Of a stretch of 64,000 nt of DNA, positions 19,187 through 26,910 are shown in pieces. Under the pieces are notes generated by a model that ran no database searches, had not been told where the DNA came from, and saw only the letters and a list, made by a program, of their open reading frames with translations. The translations under genes were made by a program, and so were the position numbers. The stretch is from Psychroserpens sp. NJDZ02. Its GTDB lineage: Bacteria; Bacteroidota; Bacteroidia; Flavobacteriales; Flavobacteriaceae. Where the stretch lies: the NCBI RefSeq assembly GCF_004843725.1, contig NZ_CP039451.1, positions 2,672,001 through 2,736,000 on the forward strand, in the 5' to 3' direction. The number at the start of each line of letters is the position of its first letter. Within the stretch, counting starts at the first letter, position 1.

Positions 19187-19993
19187 TTAATTCATTATCC
19201 ATTTGAAGGCTTTTTCTTTTGTCGCTCTAAAAATGGTATTATGTGCTTCGTTAGGTTCGTCGGAATATTTCCAATTTAAATGTTTAGCTGCACTCGATTT
19301 TAATAACTCGGCAAATGTGTTTGTTGCAACTGATATATCCTCTGCATTGGATCCTGCAAACCATAATTTTAGGTCCTTATCTGGAAATGTTTGGAAACGT
19401 GATGTTGCCGTTTTTACTAAATGCATATCGTTCCACCATAACGAGGGATCCATTGCAATATAAAAATCAAAAGCATTAGGCTGTAATAATAATGTTTCCA
19501 CAACAAATAGACCAGCTAGAGACTCACCCACAATTCCTTTTTTTGCAGTTGTACGGTAGCGTTTATTTATTTCTAAAAATAACTCGTCAGTTATAAATGC
19601 TCTAAAATTTTTAGCACCATCAGTTAATGGGCAATAATCTTCATCTGCTTTAATTTTAGAAAAACCAGATAAATCTTTTCTTCGGTCCGTGTTTTCTATA
19701 CCGACTAAGATAATGGGAGGGATACTTTTGGAATCTATAAGTTTTGATAGGGTATTGGCTATGTGCGGGAAATCTTCTTTAATTCCGCCATCAGGCATAT
19801 ATAAAACGGGGAATGTTGCAGTGGATTCTTTATATTTTGGAGGTGTCCAAACGGTTATGACTCGAGTTTCGTTTACTGCTTTAGAATCTATTGTAAACGT
19901 ATCGTGGTTTGGAATTATATCTGTAATTTGTGCATTGTCTTTGCACCCAAAAAGGACCACACATAAGATTAAGTAATAGCTGATTTTTTTCAT
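19187..19993 (-). CDS. Alpha/beta-hydrolase (esterase D/Fes-like) lipoprotein
   Basis: A 268-residue lipoprotein (LFGCKDN, Cys near residue 16) with an esterase-D-type hydrolase fold. The nucleophile elbow is VGESLAGLFV near residue 157 (GxSxxG), and FPVLYMPDGG carries the oxyanion strand. The final His is in EAHNTIF. Family members include enterochelin esterase-like and acyl-ester hydrolases; here it is in the cell envelope. No siderophore genes are near, so the substrate is open. Confidence 0.88.
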   Translation of the reverse strand: MKKISYYLILCVVLFGCKDNAQITDIIPNHDTFTIDSKAVNETRVITVWTPPKYKESTATFPVLYMPDGGIKEDFPHIANTLSKLIDSKSIPPIILVGIENTDRRKDLSGFSKIKADEDYCPLTDGAKNFRAFITDELFLEINKRYRTTAKKGIVGESLAGLFVVETLLLQPNAFDFYIAMDPSLWWNDMHLVKTATSRFQTFPDKDLKLWFAGSNAEDISVATNTFAELLKSSAAKHLNWKYSDEPNEAHNTIFRATKEKAFKWIMN

Positions 19994-20041
19994 AGTACCG
20001 ATTTAACTACAAGTTAAAACAAAAATTAAACAGGGATTATT

Positions 20042-21274
20042 TTATTGACTTAAATTTTTAATACGTTCTAGTAATGTCGGATGAGAATAATGCATAAATA
20101 CATAAGCGGGATGTGGTGTTAAATTGCTTAAACTATTTTTAGATAATTTTTTAAGCGATGTAATCAAAGGTTCTGCTTTATATGTTTTTTTTGCATAATC
20201 ATCGGCTTGGTATTCAAATTTTCTCGAAAACCAATGCATTAATAAGCCTGTCAATTCTGATAAAGGTGAATATAAAATTCCGAAAGCAATTAGTCCAATA
20301 TGAAAACTAGGCATTGACACCCCTAATGCATCACTTAATAAAGGATTTTCAATTAATAAGGATAGAATAAACAGGGTTAATCCTGTTAGTAAAACGGAAG
20401 TTATTAAATTAAAAACAATATGTTTCTTTTTGTAATGACCAATCTCGTGTGCTAATACGGCAACAATTTCATCTTCCTCTAAATCGTTAATTAATGTATC
20501 GTAAAGTGTTACTCGTTTTTCGCTTCCAAAACCAGAAAAATAAGCATTCGCTTTTGTACTTCGTTTAGAGCCGTCAATAACAAAAATTTTATCTAAATTA
20601 AAACCTACAGTTTTAGCATATTCGGAGATGGCGGTGCGTAAAGTTCCGTCTTCTAATGGACTTTGTTTATTAAAAAGAGGGACAATTATTCTAGAATAAA
20701 ACAGGTTTGCAATTACTGTAAATAGCGTTACTAATGCCCAGGCATATAACCAAAATTGTGGTCCTGTAGTTTGATAAAACCAGGTTAATGCCGCAAGAAT
20801 GGCGCCTCCAACAATAATGGTCATAAACCAACCTTTAATTTTATCAAAAATAAAAGTCTGTTTTGTTGTTTTATTAAATCCAAATTGCTCTTCAATAACA
20901 AAGGTTTTATAATAGGAAAACGGCGTGGTTAAGATATCGCTACCTAACATTATTATCCCAAAGAAAATTAGCGTGACCACAATAGAATTATCTGTTAACT
21001 GTCTCGCGATTTGATCGATAAATGCAAAACCATCTAAAAAGAAGAAGGCTAAAGTTAGTACTAAAGAAAAACCAGAAGTTAGTAATCCAAATTTATAGTT
21101 TTTAGCTTTATAACGTTGCGATTTACTATAGTCTTCGTCATCATATACATCTTGTAAATCTAATGGTAAGACATCATTATAATGTTTCGCGTTAAGCGCA
21201 TCTAAAATAGTATCCATTATAAAACTGATAATTATAATGGTTATAATGATATAAAAAAGAGTGTTAGGAGTCAT
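20042..21274 (-). CDS. M48 family metallopeptidase, Ste24/CAAX protease type
   Basis: A 410-residue integral membrane protease. The zinc motif VLAHEIGHYKKKH (HEXXH) is near residue 275 and the third ligand lies in EYQADDYAKK. There are several membrane helices before and after the motif, and the N-terminal peptidase_M48_N region has LLGSDILTTPFSYY-like sequence. Length equals Ste24-type enzymes. In bacteria these help control membrane-protein quality. It follows the TrmH-type gene by five bases, so the two are co-transcribed. Confidence 0.93.
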   Translation of the reverse strand: MTPNTLFYIIITIIIISFIMDTILDALNAKHYNDVLPLDLQDVYDDEDYSKSQRYKAKNYKFGLLTSGFSLVLTLAFFFLDGFAFIDQIARQLTDNSIVVTLIFFGIIMLGSDILTTPFSYYKTFVIEEQFGFNKTTKQTFIFDKIKGWFMTIIVGGAILAALTWFYQTTGPQFWLYAWALVTLFTVIANLFYSRIIVPLFNKQSPLEDGTLRTAISEYAKTVGFNLDKIFVIDGSKRSTKANAYFSGFGSEKRVTLYDTLINDLEEDEIVAVLAHEIGHYKKKHIVFNLITSVLLTGLTLFILSLLIENPLLSDALGVSMPSFHIGLIAFGILYSPLSELTGLLMHWFSRKFEYQADDYAKKTYKAEPLITSLKKLSKNSLSNLTPHPAYVFMHYSHPTLLERIKNLSQ

Positions 21275-22316: not shown

Positions 22317-23135
22317 ATGAAACATTTATTTTACACATTATCTCTAGCCTTAATTTTGTTTTCATGTAAAACGGAAACAAAACCAGAAGTAAAAACGGAA
22401 ACTAAAGTTGAAGCCGATACGACTAAAAAGAAGGTAGAGGTTAAAACAAAAACGTACCCAGAAAACTTAACGAAAGTGTTTAATGCTCATGGAGGAGTAG
22501 ATTTATGGAAGTCTATGAAATCTTTAGAGTATACTCAAGATAAGCCTGACGGAAAAGAAGTGACAATTACAGATTTGAACAATAGAAAAGCGTTGCTTGA
22601 ATCTGAAAATTATACTATTGGCTTTGATGGAACAAAACCTTGGTTTTTAAATAAAACAGGTAAAGAATTTAAAGGTTACGATCCTAAATTTGGATATAAT
22701 TTGATGTTTTATTTTTATACAATGCCTTTTATTTTGTCTGACGACGGAATTAAATTTTCTGAAGCTGAAGCACTTGTTTTTGAAGGAGTCACTTATCCAG
22801 GGATTAAAATATCTTATGATAATGGAGTAGGAGCAACACCTGAAGATATTTATGTTTTATATTATAATGCGGAGACTTTTAAAATGGAATGGTTAGGGTA
22901 TACAGTAAATTTTGTGCCAGGAATTGATACTAAAGAATTACATTTTAGACGTTATAGTGACTGGCAAGACGTTAATGGATTACTATTGCCTAAAACGATT
23001 ACAGGTTATGGATTTAAAGATGATAAACCAACAACACCTAAAACACCGAATACGTTTACGGATGTGAAAATCACAAAAATGGCACCTGAAGCTTCGCAAT
23101 TTGTTAAGCCTGAAAAAGCAACATTTGTAGAGTAA
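22317..23135 (+). CDS. DUF6503 family lipoprotein, copy 1
   Basis: A 272-residue lipoprotein (LFSCKTE, Cys near residue 17), then a Lys/Glu/Thr-rich linker to about residue 45, then a beta-rich domain containing HGGVDLWKSMKSLEY, MFYFYTMPF, YPGIKISYDNGVG and KMEWLGYTV, marks of DUF6503. The fold resembles LolA/LppX-like lipoprotein carriers in layout, which is inference. The gene is followed by its own terminator and by a paralogue (copy 2) with the same upstream palindrome, so both likely answer to the same regulator. Confidence 0.8.
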   Translation: MKHLFYTLSLALILFSCKTETKPEVKTETKVEADTTKKKVEVKTKTYPENLTKVFNAHGGVDLWKSMKSLEYTQDKPDGKEVTITDLNNRKALLESENYTIGFDGTKPWFLNKTGKEFKGYDPKFGYNLMFYFYTMPFILSDDGIKFSEAEALVFEGVTYPGIKISYDNGVGATPEDIYVLYYNAETFKMEWLGYTVNFVPGIDTKELHFRRYSDWQDVNGLLLPKTITGYGFKDDKPTTPKTPNTFTDVKITKMAPEASQFVKPEKATFVE

Positions 23136-23248: not shown

Positions 23249-24052
23249 ATGAAACATTTATTTTACACTTTATGTATCGGACTACTTTTTATTTCATGTA
23301 AAAATGAAACTAAAACAACAACCGAAAAAGCTTCAGAGCTACCTAAGGCAACAACTGTAGTTGCTAAGTCAAATTATCCTGAAAATATTTCAAAAGTATT
23401 TGAAGCGCATGGAGGCATTGATAATTGGAATCAAATGCAGTCATTGGCTTTTACAATGACTAAGCCTGATGGAAAAGAAATAACGACTGTAAATTTAAAA
23501 TCTAGACAGTCTTTAATTACAATGCCAGCTCATGTGTTAGGTTACGATGGTAAGACCGTATGGTTAGATAATAAAAGTGATGCGGTGTATAAAGGTAACC
23601 CAAAGTTTTATTATAATTTAATGTTCTATTTTCATACTATGCCATTTGTGCTAGCTGATAAAGGCGTTAATTATGAGGACGCAAAACCTTTAAGTTTTGA
23701 TGGTGTCGATTATCCAGGAATTAAAATTAGTTATGATAATGGTGTAGGAGAGTCGTCTGATGATGAGTATGTTTTGTATTACAATCCAACAACATTTAAA
23801 ATGGAATGGTTAGCCTATACTGTTACTTTTAATAGTAAAGCTAAAAGTGAAAAATGGTCGTTTATCAAATATGGTAAATGGCATACCATTGAAGGTATAG
23901 CATTACCTGATACTTTAACATGGTATATTGTTGAAGATAATTTACCAGTTAAAAAACGTAACGATTTACAGTTTACAGATGTTACTTTGTCTAAGCAAGC
24001 ATTACCTGCTAGTACATTTGCAAAACCAGAAACTGGAACTGTAGTAGAGTAA
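23249..24052 (+). CDS. DUF6503 family lipoprotein, copy 2
   Basis: A 267-residue paralogue of the preceding gene with nearly the same signal (MKHLFYTL, lipobox Cys at 17) and matching domain landmarks: HGGIDNWNQMQSLAFTMTKP, MFYFHTMPF, YPGIKISYDNGVG and KMEWLAYTV. The mature parts have diverged well beyond the signal and core motifs, so the duplication is old. It has its own promoter block and terminator, so the two are separate transcription units under probably common control. Confidence 0.8.
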   Translation: MKHLFYTLCIGLLFISCKNETKTTTEKASELPKATTVVAKSNYPENISKVFEAHGGIDNWNQMQSLAFTMTKPDGKEITTVNLKSRQSLITMPAHVLGYDGKTVWLDNKSDAVYKGNPKFYYNLMFYFHTMPFVLADKGVNYEDAKPLSFDGVDYPGIKISYDNGVGESSDDEYVLYYNPTTFKMEWLAYTVTFNSKAKSEKWSFIKYGKWHTIEGIALPDTLTWYIVEDNLPVKKRNDLQFTDVTLSKQALPASTFAKPETGTVVE

Positions 24053-24075
24053 GTATTAGTTATAAAATTTTAAAT

Positions 24076-24106
24076 AAAAAAAGCGACCCGTTGGGTCGCT
24101 TTTTTT
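24076..24106 (+). terminator. Terminator of DUF6503 copy 2
   Basis: AAAAAAAGCGACCC, loop GTT, GGGTCGCTTTTTTT. Confidence 0.92.
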
Positions 24107-24915
24107 ATTTAAGGTTATTTGTAAATTTAATTGTCACACTGAGCGCAGTCGAAGTACATCTTTAGTATTATATTTTTGAGTTTTTAAGGACTTCGACTGC
24201 GCTCAGCCTGACATCGGTAATAAAAGGATGCTTATTAGTATTGTTGTCACACTGAGCAGAGTCGAAGTGCTTATTTAGTATTATGTTTCTTGTTTACAAG
24301 GACTTCGACTGCGCTCAGCCTGACATTAGTAATAAAAAGATGATTATTAGTGTTGTTGTCACACTGAGCGCAGTCGAAGTGCTTATTTAGTATTATGCTT
24401 TTTAATTTCAAGGACTTCGACTGCGCTCAGCCTGACATTAGTAATAAAAAGATGATTATTAGTGTTTTTGTCACACTGAGCACAGTCGAAGTGTTTCTTT
24501 AGTACTATGTTTCTTGTTTACAAGGTCTTCGACTGCGCTCAGCCTGACATTAGTAATAAAAAGATGATTATTAGTGTTGTTGTCACACTGAGCGCAGTCG
24601 AAGTGCTTATTTAGTATTATGCTTTTTAATTTCAAGGACTTCGACTGCGCTCAGCCTGACATTAGTAATAAAAGGATGCTTAGTAATATTATTGTCACAC
24701 TGAGCGTAGTCGAAGTGTTTATTTAGTATTATGCTTTTTAGTTTTAAGGTCTTCGACTGCGCTCAGCCTGACATTGGTAATAAAATGATAATTAGTAGTA
24801 TTGCTGTCACACTGAGCGGAGTCGAAGTGTTTATTTAGTATTATGTTTCTTGTTTACAAGGACTTCGACTGCGCTCAGCCTGACATTAGTAATAAAAAGA
24901 TGATTATTAGTGTTG

Positions 24916-25316
24916 TTGTCACACTGAGCGCAGTCGAAGTGTTTATTTTATCGATTTAGATACCATTGTATTTATAATGTGTTGCATTCCTGCATTCAGA
25001 TAAAATTTTAAGTAAATCAAAGTCCTTATTAATTAGAGCTTCTTTTTTAGATTTTGTCCAACCTTTAATTTTCTTTTCAAAATAAATGGCTTGGATTACA
25101 TCATTAAATTCTTGGTGAAATTGACAAATGACAGGTCTTCTTTTGAATGTGTAACTATTTCTGTTTTTACCAGATTGGTGTTCATTAAGTCGTTTTTCGA
25201 GGTTATTTGTTATTCCTGTGTAGAACGAATTATCTGAGCATTTTAATATGTAAACAAAATAGAAATGCATTTGTGTTTGTTTAGTTTTAATGACTTCGAC
25301 TGCGCTCAGCCTGACA
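24916..25316 (-). mobile_element. Gene-bearing hairpin unit (GIY-YIG between repeat arms)
   Basis: The left arm at 24916-24941 and the right arm at 25292-25316 enclose only the GIY-YIG gene. The edges of its loop match those of the short units: GTGTTTATTT after the left arm and TTTAGTTTTAA before the right arm. The short units therefore look like internally deleted forms of this one, as non-autonomous elements are to their parent. Mobility itself is inference. Confidence 0.65.
24956..25270 (-). CDS. GIY-YIG nuclease domain protein
   Basis: A 104-residue single-domain protein of the UvrC/URI type. Catalytic marks are FVYILKC (GIY strand) near residue 5, FYTGITNNLEKRLNEHQSG with YTG and the Arg, and YFEKKIKGWTKSKKEALI with the Glu near residue 68. 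Small GIY-YIG proteins of this size are common in Bacteroidota. The special point is position: its stop is 14 bp from one repeat arm and its start 21 bp from the other, so it occupies the loop of one unit of the hairpin array. A role in making or moving the repeats is a strong hypothesis, not shown. Confidence 0.9.
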   Translation of the reverse strand: MHFYFVYILKCSDNSFYTGITNNLEKRLNEHQSGKNRNSYTFKRRPVICQFHQEFNDVIQAIYFEKKIKGWTKSKKEALINKDFDLLKILSECRNATHYKYNGI

Positions 25317-25614
25317 TTAGTAATAAAAAGATGCTTAGTAATATTATTGTCACACTGAGCGCAGTCGAAGTGTTTATTTAGTATTATGCTTTTTAGTTTT
25401 AAAGGACTTCGACTGCGCTTAGCCTGACATTAGTAATAAAAAGATGATTATTAGTATTATTGTCACACTGAGCGGAGTCGAAGTGCATATTTAGTATTAT
25501 GTTTCTTGATTACAAGGACTTCGACTGCGGTCAGCTTGACATTGGTAATAAAAAGATGATTATTAGTATTGTTGTCATACTGAACTCAGTCGAAATATCT
25601 TTATAGTGTTAACT

Positions 25615-26910
25615 CTATTTATTCTTATACTTCTCAGAGTAACGCTTGTACAATTCTGTTTGGTGTGTTTCTAAGCTAATTTTACGACCTTGGATAAAAG
25701 CTTGATCCAATTTGTTAGTTCTCATGTCTAAAGCATCGCCTTGGCTAATAAAAAGGGTAGCATCTTTACCAACTTCTAGAGAGCCTACTGAGTCGTCTAT
25801 ACCTAATATTTTGGCAGTATTTAAAGTAATTAAACTTAAGGCCTGAGCTTTAGTTAGACCATAAGCAACAGTTGTGCCGGCTAAAAACGGAAGGTTTCTG
25901 GTGTTCATACGCTCCATGTCTCCCGAATTTTCTAAACCAACTAACACACCAGCATTTACTAATTGCGCGGCTAATTTATAAGGTAAATCATAATCATGAT
26001 CGTCTCCTTTAGGTCTAGAGTGCGTGCGTTGTACTAATACAGGAATATTATTTTGCTTAAGTAAGTTAGTGACATTATTAGCTTCATAACCACCAACAAT
26101 AATCATACTCTTTATCTTTTCCGTTGTAGCAAAATTTATAGCATCCGTAATCCCTTTTTCGTTATCCACATGTATAAATAGTTTTTTAGAGCCATCCATT
26201 AAGCCATGTAAAGCTTCAAAAGGCAAATCTTTTGGAGAGGTCTTATTAGCATTATAGGCTTTGCTTTGTGCAAAGTAGCTCGTTAGCTCGTCAACCTCCT
26301 TTGCATAGTTTTTGTTTTCTTTTAAAACATTAGGTTCTCCTAACCACCAACGTCCTCTAGAGTAGTTGCTTGGCCAGTTTAGATGTATACCATCATCTTC
26401 CTTAATAACGGCATCTTCCCAGTTCCAAGCATCTAATTGTACAACACTTGATGTTCCAGAAATTCGTCCACCACGAGGTGTGATTTGCGCCATTAAGACT
26501 CCGTTTGGTCTCATGGATTCTACGATCTTAGATTCTGTATTATATGCAATTAAACTTCTAATATGCGGATTCATAGCACCAACTTCATCTTCGTCATCAC
26601 TTGCTCTAACAGCATCAACTTCTACTAATCCTAAAGTAGAATTTGGAGCAATAAAACCAGGATATACATGTTTACCTTTAGCATCAATAACAGTTCCTTG
26701 TCTTGCAATTTTTGTGTTGGCACTACCAACAAACGTTAGTGTACCGTTTTCAAACATTATTAAAGCATTTTCAATAACGTCACCGTTTCCTAAATGTACT
26801 GTTGCACCTTCAATAGTAATGGCTTGGGTTTGTTTATCTCCAGGCGTTTGTTGGGCAAAACTAATTGCCGAAACACATAACGTCAGGATTAATATTTTAA
26901 GTGTTCTCAT
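25615..26910 (-). CDS. Amidohydrolase-like periplasmic protein, metal site degenerate
   Basis: A 431-residue protein with signal peptide (LTLCVSAISFAQQ) and an amidohydrolase fold ending in the beta-sandwich VGSLEVGKDATLFISQGD. The usual HxH motif after strand 1 is missing: the site reads VYPGFIAPNSTLGLVE. Later ligand positions are also altered (LENSGD in place of a catalytic Asp context). It is the downstream partner of the 994-residue amidohydrolase (75 bp apart). It may be an inactive subunit or chaperone for it. Related to imidazolonepropionase-like enzymes. Confidence 0.85.
   Translation of the reverse strand: MRTLKILILTLCVSAISFAQQTPGDKQTQAITIEGATVHLGNGDVIENALIMFENGTLTFVGSANTKIARQGTVIDAKGKHVYPGFIAPNSTLGLVEVDAVRASDDEDEVGAMNPHIRSLIAYNTESKIVESMRPNGVLMAQITPRGGRISGTSSVVQLDAWNWEDAVIKEDDGIHLNWPSNYSRGRWWLGEPNVLKENKNYAKEVDELTSYFAQSKAYNANKTSPKDLPFEALHGLMDGSKKLFIHVDNEKGITDAINFATTEKIKSMIIVGGYEANNVTNLLKQNNIPVLVQRTHSRPKGDDHDYDLPYKLAAQLVNAGVLVGLENSGDMERMNTRNLPFLAGTTVAYGLTKAQALSLITLNTAKILGIDDSVGSLEVGKDATLFISQGDALDMRTNKLDQAFIQGRKISLETHQTELYKRYSEKYKNK

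Follow-up and report, generated by a model that had tools for sequence, protein, structure and literature searches.

Small GIY-YIG nucleases are probably the cognate enzymes of the tagged hairpin repeats that flank their genes

The closest described systems are the RAYT/REP elements with their REPINs and the CGTC-tagged REP superfamily. RAYTs are defined by flanking inverted REPs, by co-evolution with them and by REP abundance (Nunvar 2010, PMC2817692); the small gene encodes a Y1/HUH tyrosine transposase and lies between inverted REPs with a GTAG tag, each enzyme varies together with its REP, the number of REPs goes with the presence of the gene, and hairpin-forming REP pairs (REPINs) occur elsewhere in the genome (Nunvar 2010, PMC2817692; Bertels and Rainey 2011, PMC3116915). 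The CGTC-tagged superfamily consists of short palindromes with a CGTC or TGTC tag that also occur as inverted pairs; according to its description, these repeats "apparently lack a dedicated transposase", their mobiliser is left to future work, Sinorhizobium meliloti, Azospirillum lipoferum and Neisseriae are among their hosts, and the term GIY is not mentioned (Di Nocera 2013, PMC3733652). By title and abstract, no paper linking GIY-YIG proteins to REPs was found among the open-licence papers of PubMed Central, a collection without preprints. Here we describe a gene family in which the three features that define RAYTs, namely flanking REPs, co-variation and abundance, are all present with a different enzyme, a PF01541 GIY-YIG protein, and a different tag, TGTC/CGTC.

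The window analysed is a 64,000-nucleotide stretch of Psychroserpens sp. NJDZ02 (NZ_CP039451.1, positions 2,672,001 to 2,736,000). It contains a tandem array of hairpin units at 24132..25597, flanked by converging genes at 23249-24052 (+) and 25615-26910 (-). The GTC of the left arms lies at 24133, 24246, 24358, 24470, 24582, 24694, 24806, 24918, 25349, 25462 and 25574, a spacing of 112-113 bp with the sole exception of the 431 bp across unit 8, which holds a GIY-YIG gene, and TRF reported two tandem stretches (24131-24948 and 25280-25594). The preliminary description had paired each of the eleven left arms with an inverted right arm; the eleven left arms and their step hold, but only 10 right arms were found in the array, so the degenerate left arm at 25574 (25573..25597, + strand) is unpaired. 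Seven gene-less units with their spacers occupy 24132..24916 and two more occupy 25348..25572. The unit at 24357-24438 folds into one long DNA hairpin (-26.2 kcal/mol, z -8.5) that none of 200 shuffles equalled, in agreement with the long hairpins first proposed. With up to two mismatches allowed, the arm pattern of this class (class A) occurs at 58 sites in the 4.32-Mb genome and its reversed control at none, indicating that the array arms are beyond chance. An Rfam search of 23900-25800 gave no matches. The two genes upstream of the array (22317-23135 and 23249-24052) are paralogues, 72% alike over 231 nt, and look lipoprotein-like by eye.

The GIY-YIG gene (24956..25270, - strand; 104 aa; PF01541, E=2.4e-18) lies, as had been claimed, in the loop of the eighth unit. 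The left arm of this unit (24917..24942, + strand), TGTC-tagged and with the stem ACACT/AGTGT, stands beside the 3' end of the gene, and the right arm (25293..25316, - strand), which reads TGTC and then AGGCT on the - strand, stands beside its 5' end. The edges of the loop, TGTTTATTT at 24940..24948, overlapping the end of the left arm, and TTTAGTTTTAA at 25280..25290, are common to the gene-less units at 24694 and 25349; the matching edges reported earlier are therefore a property of these two units, whereas the edges of the other gene-less units diverge more from unit 8. The gene-less window units retain both class A ends. The tandem arrays may have arisen by repeated copying of a unit together with its spacer.

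Residues Y7, Y17, G19, R27, H31 and E65 of the window protein are invariant in a 34-sequence alignment, and the Tyr, Tyr, Arg and Glu to which we ascribe catalytic roles in the GIY-YIG domain are all present. The AlphaFold model of the 104 residues has a mean pLDDT of 87.2. Its nearest solved folds were two UPF0213 structures, 1zg2 (BH0048, E 4e-5) and 1ywl (EF2693, E 0.009), followed by Slx1 (4xlg, E 0.028) and the UvrC GIY-YIG domain (E 0.67); 1zg2 alone fell below E 0.001. The window protein resembles the UPF0213 GIY-YIG proteins in both sequence and fold, and in these comparisons no connection of 1zg2 or 1ywl to REPs came up. Slx1 is a branch-cutting nuclease, and the likeness of the model to it is a weak indication that the window protein may cut folded DNA. 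An NCBIfam search gave no matches, and weak TAL-effector matches in a PDB sequence search were treated as chance.

The Psychroserpens genome holds eight PF01541 matches, five of which are small genes, one of them broken. All five have arms of their own class within 200 nt on both sides: the nearest listed arms are at 37 and 23 nt for the window gene (class A), 149 and 73 nt for L004 (class C), 69 and 55 nt for L003 (class E), 75 and 55 nt for the broken L005 (class E) and 199 and 131 nt for L002 (class F). None of the other 15 gene/class combinations has an arm nearer than 7.9 kb by the class patterns, a search that takes in less degenerate arms. Exact arm copies number 56 for class A, 38 for C, 36 for E and 51 for F, and every reversed pattern gave 0. 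The other three PF01541 matches belong to longer frames (609, 480 and 458 aa); that in the 458-aa frame is partial and about 1.1 kb from class E arms. L005 (G000:C1:4183905-4184120) is a near-copy of the L003 gene, about 5 kb away from it and still between class E arms. Further arrays of classes F (periods of about 111, 102 and 155 bp), C (about 275 bp) and A (about 105 bp) lie at G000:C1 positions 442161-442938, 2888443-2888954, 3608196-3608971, 4225103-4227027 and 19463-20842, array formation being a habit of several classes in this genome.

The arms share a layout of TGTC tag, stem of about 5 bp, GA, loop, GA and second stem half, except that class F arms pair straight through and the second GA is missing. 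Taken alone, arms of classes A, B, E and G are no more stable than their shuffles (z 0.12, 0.05, -0.50 and -0.73, respectively), so the hairpin form of these arms rests on the complementary stem halves that recur from class to class (AGGTC/GACCT, AGTTC/GAACT, ATTGC/GCAAT, ATTCC/GGAAT, ACCCT/AGGGT). The tags mostly point outward from the gene and face inward at some loci, for example in a Neisseria record. The two ends of an element are distinct in class C, with 5' ACT and 3' AGT in 9 of the 12 genes (among 19) whose two sides could both be read, and in class A, with 5' AG[GT] and 3' ACA in five of seven such genes (among 14); classes B, D, E and F have no fixed 5'/3' end rule. In class A the CGTC/TGTC-type tag is unpaired in the single repeat, as it is in the CGTC superfamily. 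The families described there have an 8-9 bp stem starting with AT pairs, a 4-5 nt loop and a CCA-like tail (PMC3733652), whereas class A has a stem of about 5 bp starting AC or AG, the GA...GA motif, a longer loop and no CCA tail. Since it departs from the described stem, loop and tail features, we file class A beside the CGTC superfamily and not inside it.

Homologues of the window protein are present in 100 of 149 genomes of the family, with one genome taken per genus. We assembled 30 loci from the homologue search, 80 regions chosen among the matches listed and the 8 loci of the Psychroserpens genome, 123 genes in total; after removal of one duplicate (L001), of identical proteins and of genes whose flanks were cut, 117 were used in the inverted-repeat test and 116 in the tagged-hairpin and class tests. 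An inverted-repeat score of at least 14 within 150 nt was reached by 47 of the 117 genes, compared to 9 of 1150 displaced windows and 76 of 1159 cross-locus pairings. Listed arms stood within 200 nt on both sides of 75 of the 96 genes that scored at least 90 bits, a score line that does not guarantee an intact gene (some encode only 66-85 aa), compared to 14 of 1140 displaced windows; this count is partly circular because the class list was read from the same loci, a circularity that does not touch the plasmid-collection and separate-scan results given below. The class was the same on both sides at 74 of the 96 genes, and 84 had an arm on at least one side (128 of 1140 displaced windows had one on either side). 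Weaker or fragmentary genes were two-sided in 7 of 20 cases. Over all two-sided genes the two classes agreed in 81 of 82 (permuted mean 17.8, maximum 31). Flanking of small GIY-YIG genes beyond chance, which the proposed link between gene and arms entails, is thus borne out in the family and again in the separate scan.

A strict tagged-hairpin scanner found two-sided hairpins at 16 of 116 genes (control 0.1%), 13 of the 16 having stems that differ by at most one (permuted mean 4.5, maximum 10). Its yield was low because many arms are imperfect, and as the main test it was replaced by the class motifs and the separate scan. We also dropped the idea that the window-type arm is the sole relevant one: among the 30 loci it flanks mainly the nearest homologues, and other clades have other arms. 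Twelve of the 96 genes had no listed class on either side, and ten of these were inspected by eye. L079, L081 and L099 have TGTC...CTGAGC...GTCGAAG-like arms with a longer loop, L106, L108 and two genes in L109 have other hairpins, L135 has weak half-like stretches only, and L103 and L124 have no hairpin in their flanks; the end of the L103 protein, ...PEPVEG..., was taken as a putative translated REP.

Several loci carry unusual arrangements. L071 (G131:C1:321017-324325) encodes a close GIY-YIG homologue and a pyridoxal-phosphate enzyme (PF00291, E 1.7e-22) as one in-frame fusion, with a linker, LDSARPD, that by eye resembles a translated B-class hairpin. L098 has a similar frame of 411 aa, the second part of which has no Pfam match. 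L073 (G013) and L108 (G108) hold pairs of GIY-YIG genes with identical proteins, about 1 kb and 0.5 kb apart, respectively, which are doubled gene-bearing units.

To relate arm class to the enzyme, we used a tree, resting on only 103 columns, of 74 genes that scored at least 90 bits, had one and the same class on their two flanks and encoded no more than 160 aa. The 10 classes need 12 changes on this tree, against a minimum of 9 and a shuffled mean of 48.4, and none of 200 shuffles was as low, so that GIY-YIG phylogeny tracks arm sequence as the preliminary description had anticipated for a true link. Classes C, E and F each form one side of one starred branch, class A needs 5 changes and classes B, D, G, H and I need 2 each; one A label (L119) sits among class I genes. 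Paralogues of the same genome group with same-class genes of other genera, indicating that class follows the enzyme and not the host.

Arm number also follows the gene. The median number of A arms was 11 in the 23 genomes with an A-flanked gene vs. 0 in the other 126 (p 1e-13), an excess that persists when 4 arms per carrier are removed (p 8.8e-7), and the median number of B arms was 9 in genomes with a B-flanked gene vs. 0 (p 6.6e-12; p 1.2e-6 with 4 arms removed). Among the genomes without a flanked gene of the class in question in the fetched set, 6 of 126 hold at least 8 A arms and 12 of 126 at least 8 B arms, 18 genome/class cases in total; in one genome (G084) the B arms number 31, and a search for GIY-YIG proteins gave nothing at E<=1e-3. 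Arms can therefore persist, or move, without a detected gene of their class. Such arms resemble orphan REPs left after gene loss, a resemblance that is not proof. Arms without a GIY-YIG gene had been named as grounds for regarding the link as chance, and these cases do count partly against the link, but abundance otherwise follows the gene.

The same arrangement recurs outside the family. A tblastn search with the L003 protein matched 32 records of a plasmid collection, some of which are chromosomes filed there, and 14 of 16 fetched loci had matched inverted tagged repeats, by score or by eye; the loci of Rhizobium tumorigenes (L163) and Photobacterium (L164) had none. The repeat-flanked GIY-YIG loci include S. 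meliloti, A. lipoferum and a Neisseria record, in which the tagged repeats beside the gene are presumably dRS3. Tagged repeats therefore flank GIY-YIG genes in three of the host taxa listed for the CGTC superfamily (PMC3733652).

A separate scan of a species-genome collection used a protein pattern only. Its query alignment comprised 11 proteins, ten of which came from the 16 plasmid-collection loci and are each encoded by a gene flanked by REPs. From at least 574 relatives the 80 best were kept, and 75 loci, mostly proteobacterial, were used, 5 of the 80 being without full flanks. Among these best-scoring relatives, 62 of 75 had an inverted-repeat score of at least 16 (control, 1 of 450), and 46 of 75 had a [CT]GTC-tagged 8-bp hairpin on both sides, 43 of them with the same stem (control, 2 of 450). 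A tag-outward hairpin was present upstream in 44 and downstream in 54 of the same 75 loci, and many show CCA after the hairpin. A typical proteobacterial arm, CGTCATCCTCGGGCTTGACCCGAGGATCCA, folds strongly (-10.1 kcal/mol, z -4.7). By record title, two-sided loci occur in Erythrobacter colymbi, Sphingomonas sp. IC081, Bradyrhizobium mercantei, Rhodanobacter thiooxydans, Undibacterium curvum and Methylotenera, as well as in MAGs of Candidatus Uhrbacteria and Armatimonadota. In Caulobacter the inverted repeats are strong (35-46.5) and no strict two-sided tagged hairpin is present, and a few loci, L225, L235, L243 and L246 among them, have neither strong inverted repeats nor two-sided tagged hairpins.

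Related genomes differ in the presence of the element and in the number of units, a difference that had been proposed for checking among strains. At the window site, 2 of 10 genus genomes (G000 and G154) have array and gene, in one (G149) a gene-bearing unit stands alone without an array, and the other seven have no gene, unit or arm between the same neighbours; in G156 (L177), which is among these seven, a stretch resembling an arm lies on the far side of the neighbouring gene. In A. lipoferum 4B, sufB is separated from sufC by an element that has a REP pair at either side, and none of the four fetched relatives (A. ramasamyi, A. oryzae, strain B510 and A. thermophilum) has the gene or a REP pair there. 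Shinella H4-D48 is without an element present in WSC3-e. S. meliloti Ak57 has an element between gltA and lpxB where Sinorhizobium K101 has one REP and no gene, and Planktothrix agardhii No.66 has the gene among gene-less units where PCC7805 and NIES-204 have gene-less units only, a second case of the window layout, inside one species. The No.66 element (L152) lies between an MmeI-type restriction gene and DISARM drmA, in what looks like a defence island. The sites of relatives are too diverged for a base-exact empty site, junction or target duplication to be read, and whether the differences reflect gain or loss is not proved.

A short copy adjoins the intact element in S. meliloti Ak57. It consists of the REP and 5' edge (42/45 identical) joined, with a 3-nt overlap, to a segment that runs from the closing part of the GIY-YIG frame through the 3' edge into the beginning of the other REP (107/112 identical). 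The internally deleted offspring postulated for the gene-bearing unit thus exists in one instance with both ends kept. MITEs likewise are internally deleted derivatives that keep both ends of a parent transposon, whereas here the ends are short self-complementary REPs, and the diverged sites gave no target duplication to read.

The best explanation of these observations is that the gene belongs with the arm on either side of it to a single element, REP - GIY-YIG nuclease - REP, and we consider it quite probable that the small GIY-YIG nuclease is the cognate enzyme of its hairpin class in a RAYT-like system with an unrelated enzyme. Flanking, class match, tree tracking and site differences all support the REP-like system first suggested from the window. 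In such a system the GIY-YIG protein would bind, cleave and spread the hairpins: it would recognise the folded REP, as a single strand or cruciform, through the stem and cut adjacent to the tag, after which host repair or replication would copy or insert the REP-bounded segment. Gene-less pairs, REPIN-like and here in a tandem array, would be internally deleted derivatives that keep both ends and are acted on in trans. GIY-YIG enzymes hydrolyse DNA, so joining may rest on host repair; this is the weakest step of the proposed mechanism. Because GIY-YIG catalysis involves, to our knowledge, no covalent intermediate, a transposase-like path is not obvious.

Alternatively, the hairpins may be spread by another agent and the GIY-YIG gene may be a homing-like parasite that invades their loops by way of break repair, the hairpin being its cut site. 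GIY-YIG domains are known as homing nucleases, the gene-less units of P. agardhii PCC7805 and NIES-204 and the lone REP of Sinorhizobium K101 fit such invasion, and genomes with arms and without the gene exist. However, the seven genus genomes and four Azospirillum relatives that lack both gene and hairpins at the site suggest that hairpin and gene come together there, most class A and C genes keep one orientation relative to the two ends, and arm number follows the gene. We regard homing as unlikely, though worth keeping in mind.

The enzyme might instead limit the hairpins, cutting its own REP class during replication and being kept by addiction or housekeeping. Slx1 is among the nearest folds, at E 0.028 only, and the window array persists beside a gene with an intact frame, both of which would fit such a role. 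The higher, not lower, arm number in carriers runs counter to it, and element gain or loss and the deletion derivative fit mobility, which together make this explanation very improbable.

That a RAYT (Y1/HUH transposase) or another enzyme moves the hairpins, with the GIY-YIG gene as cargo, could be suspected from the three Y1_Tnp (RAYT-type) matches in the Psychroserpens genome and from the presence of such a match in 28 of 60 family genomes. We used Y1_Tnp loci as a control, 28 in all after 4 of 32 proved too short, with flanks taken from the domain match, which for long frames lie inside the gene. TGTC-type hairpins were on both sides at 0 of the 28 loci and on one side at 1; 7 of 28 had inverted repeats of other sequence with a score of at least 14. 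Y1 transposases were set aside as the mover on the 0/28 count. A cargo gene would not track hairpin class, and the description of the CGTC superfamily likewise reports no tyrosine transposase gene flanked by CGTC repeats (Di Nocera 2013, PMC3733652), so that we give this explanation hardly any credence. It is just as implausible that selection maintains the hairpins as terminators or mRNA stabilisers, with a GIY-YIG repair enzyme sitting there by chance: although the array lies between convergent genes and UPF0213-type GIY-YIG proteins occur also where such hairpins are unexpected, the class match (81/82), tree tracking, displaced controls and recurrence in other phyla speak against it.

Because the same pairing occurs in many other bacteria, the GIY-YIG family looks like the missing partner of this hairpin class, and it seems fairly likely that small GIY-YIG nucleases are the enzymes of a CGTC/TGTC-tagged REP superfamily that spans many phyla and is independent of HUH enzymes, with each clade matched to its own stem. 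A nuclease gene that lies between CGTC-type repeats, matches their class and is followed by their number makes the question of the mobiliser testable with one protein and a few oligonucleotides. If the cognate-enzyme reading is true, it would give a likely job to the many tiny open reading frames annotated only as "GIY-YIG nuclease family protein". REPIN-like genome hairpins would then have a second origin, through a second, HUH-independent kind of hairpin mobilisation, with a hydrolytic, structure-selective nuclease standing in for the transposase.
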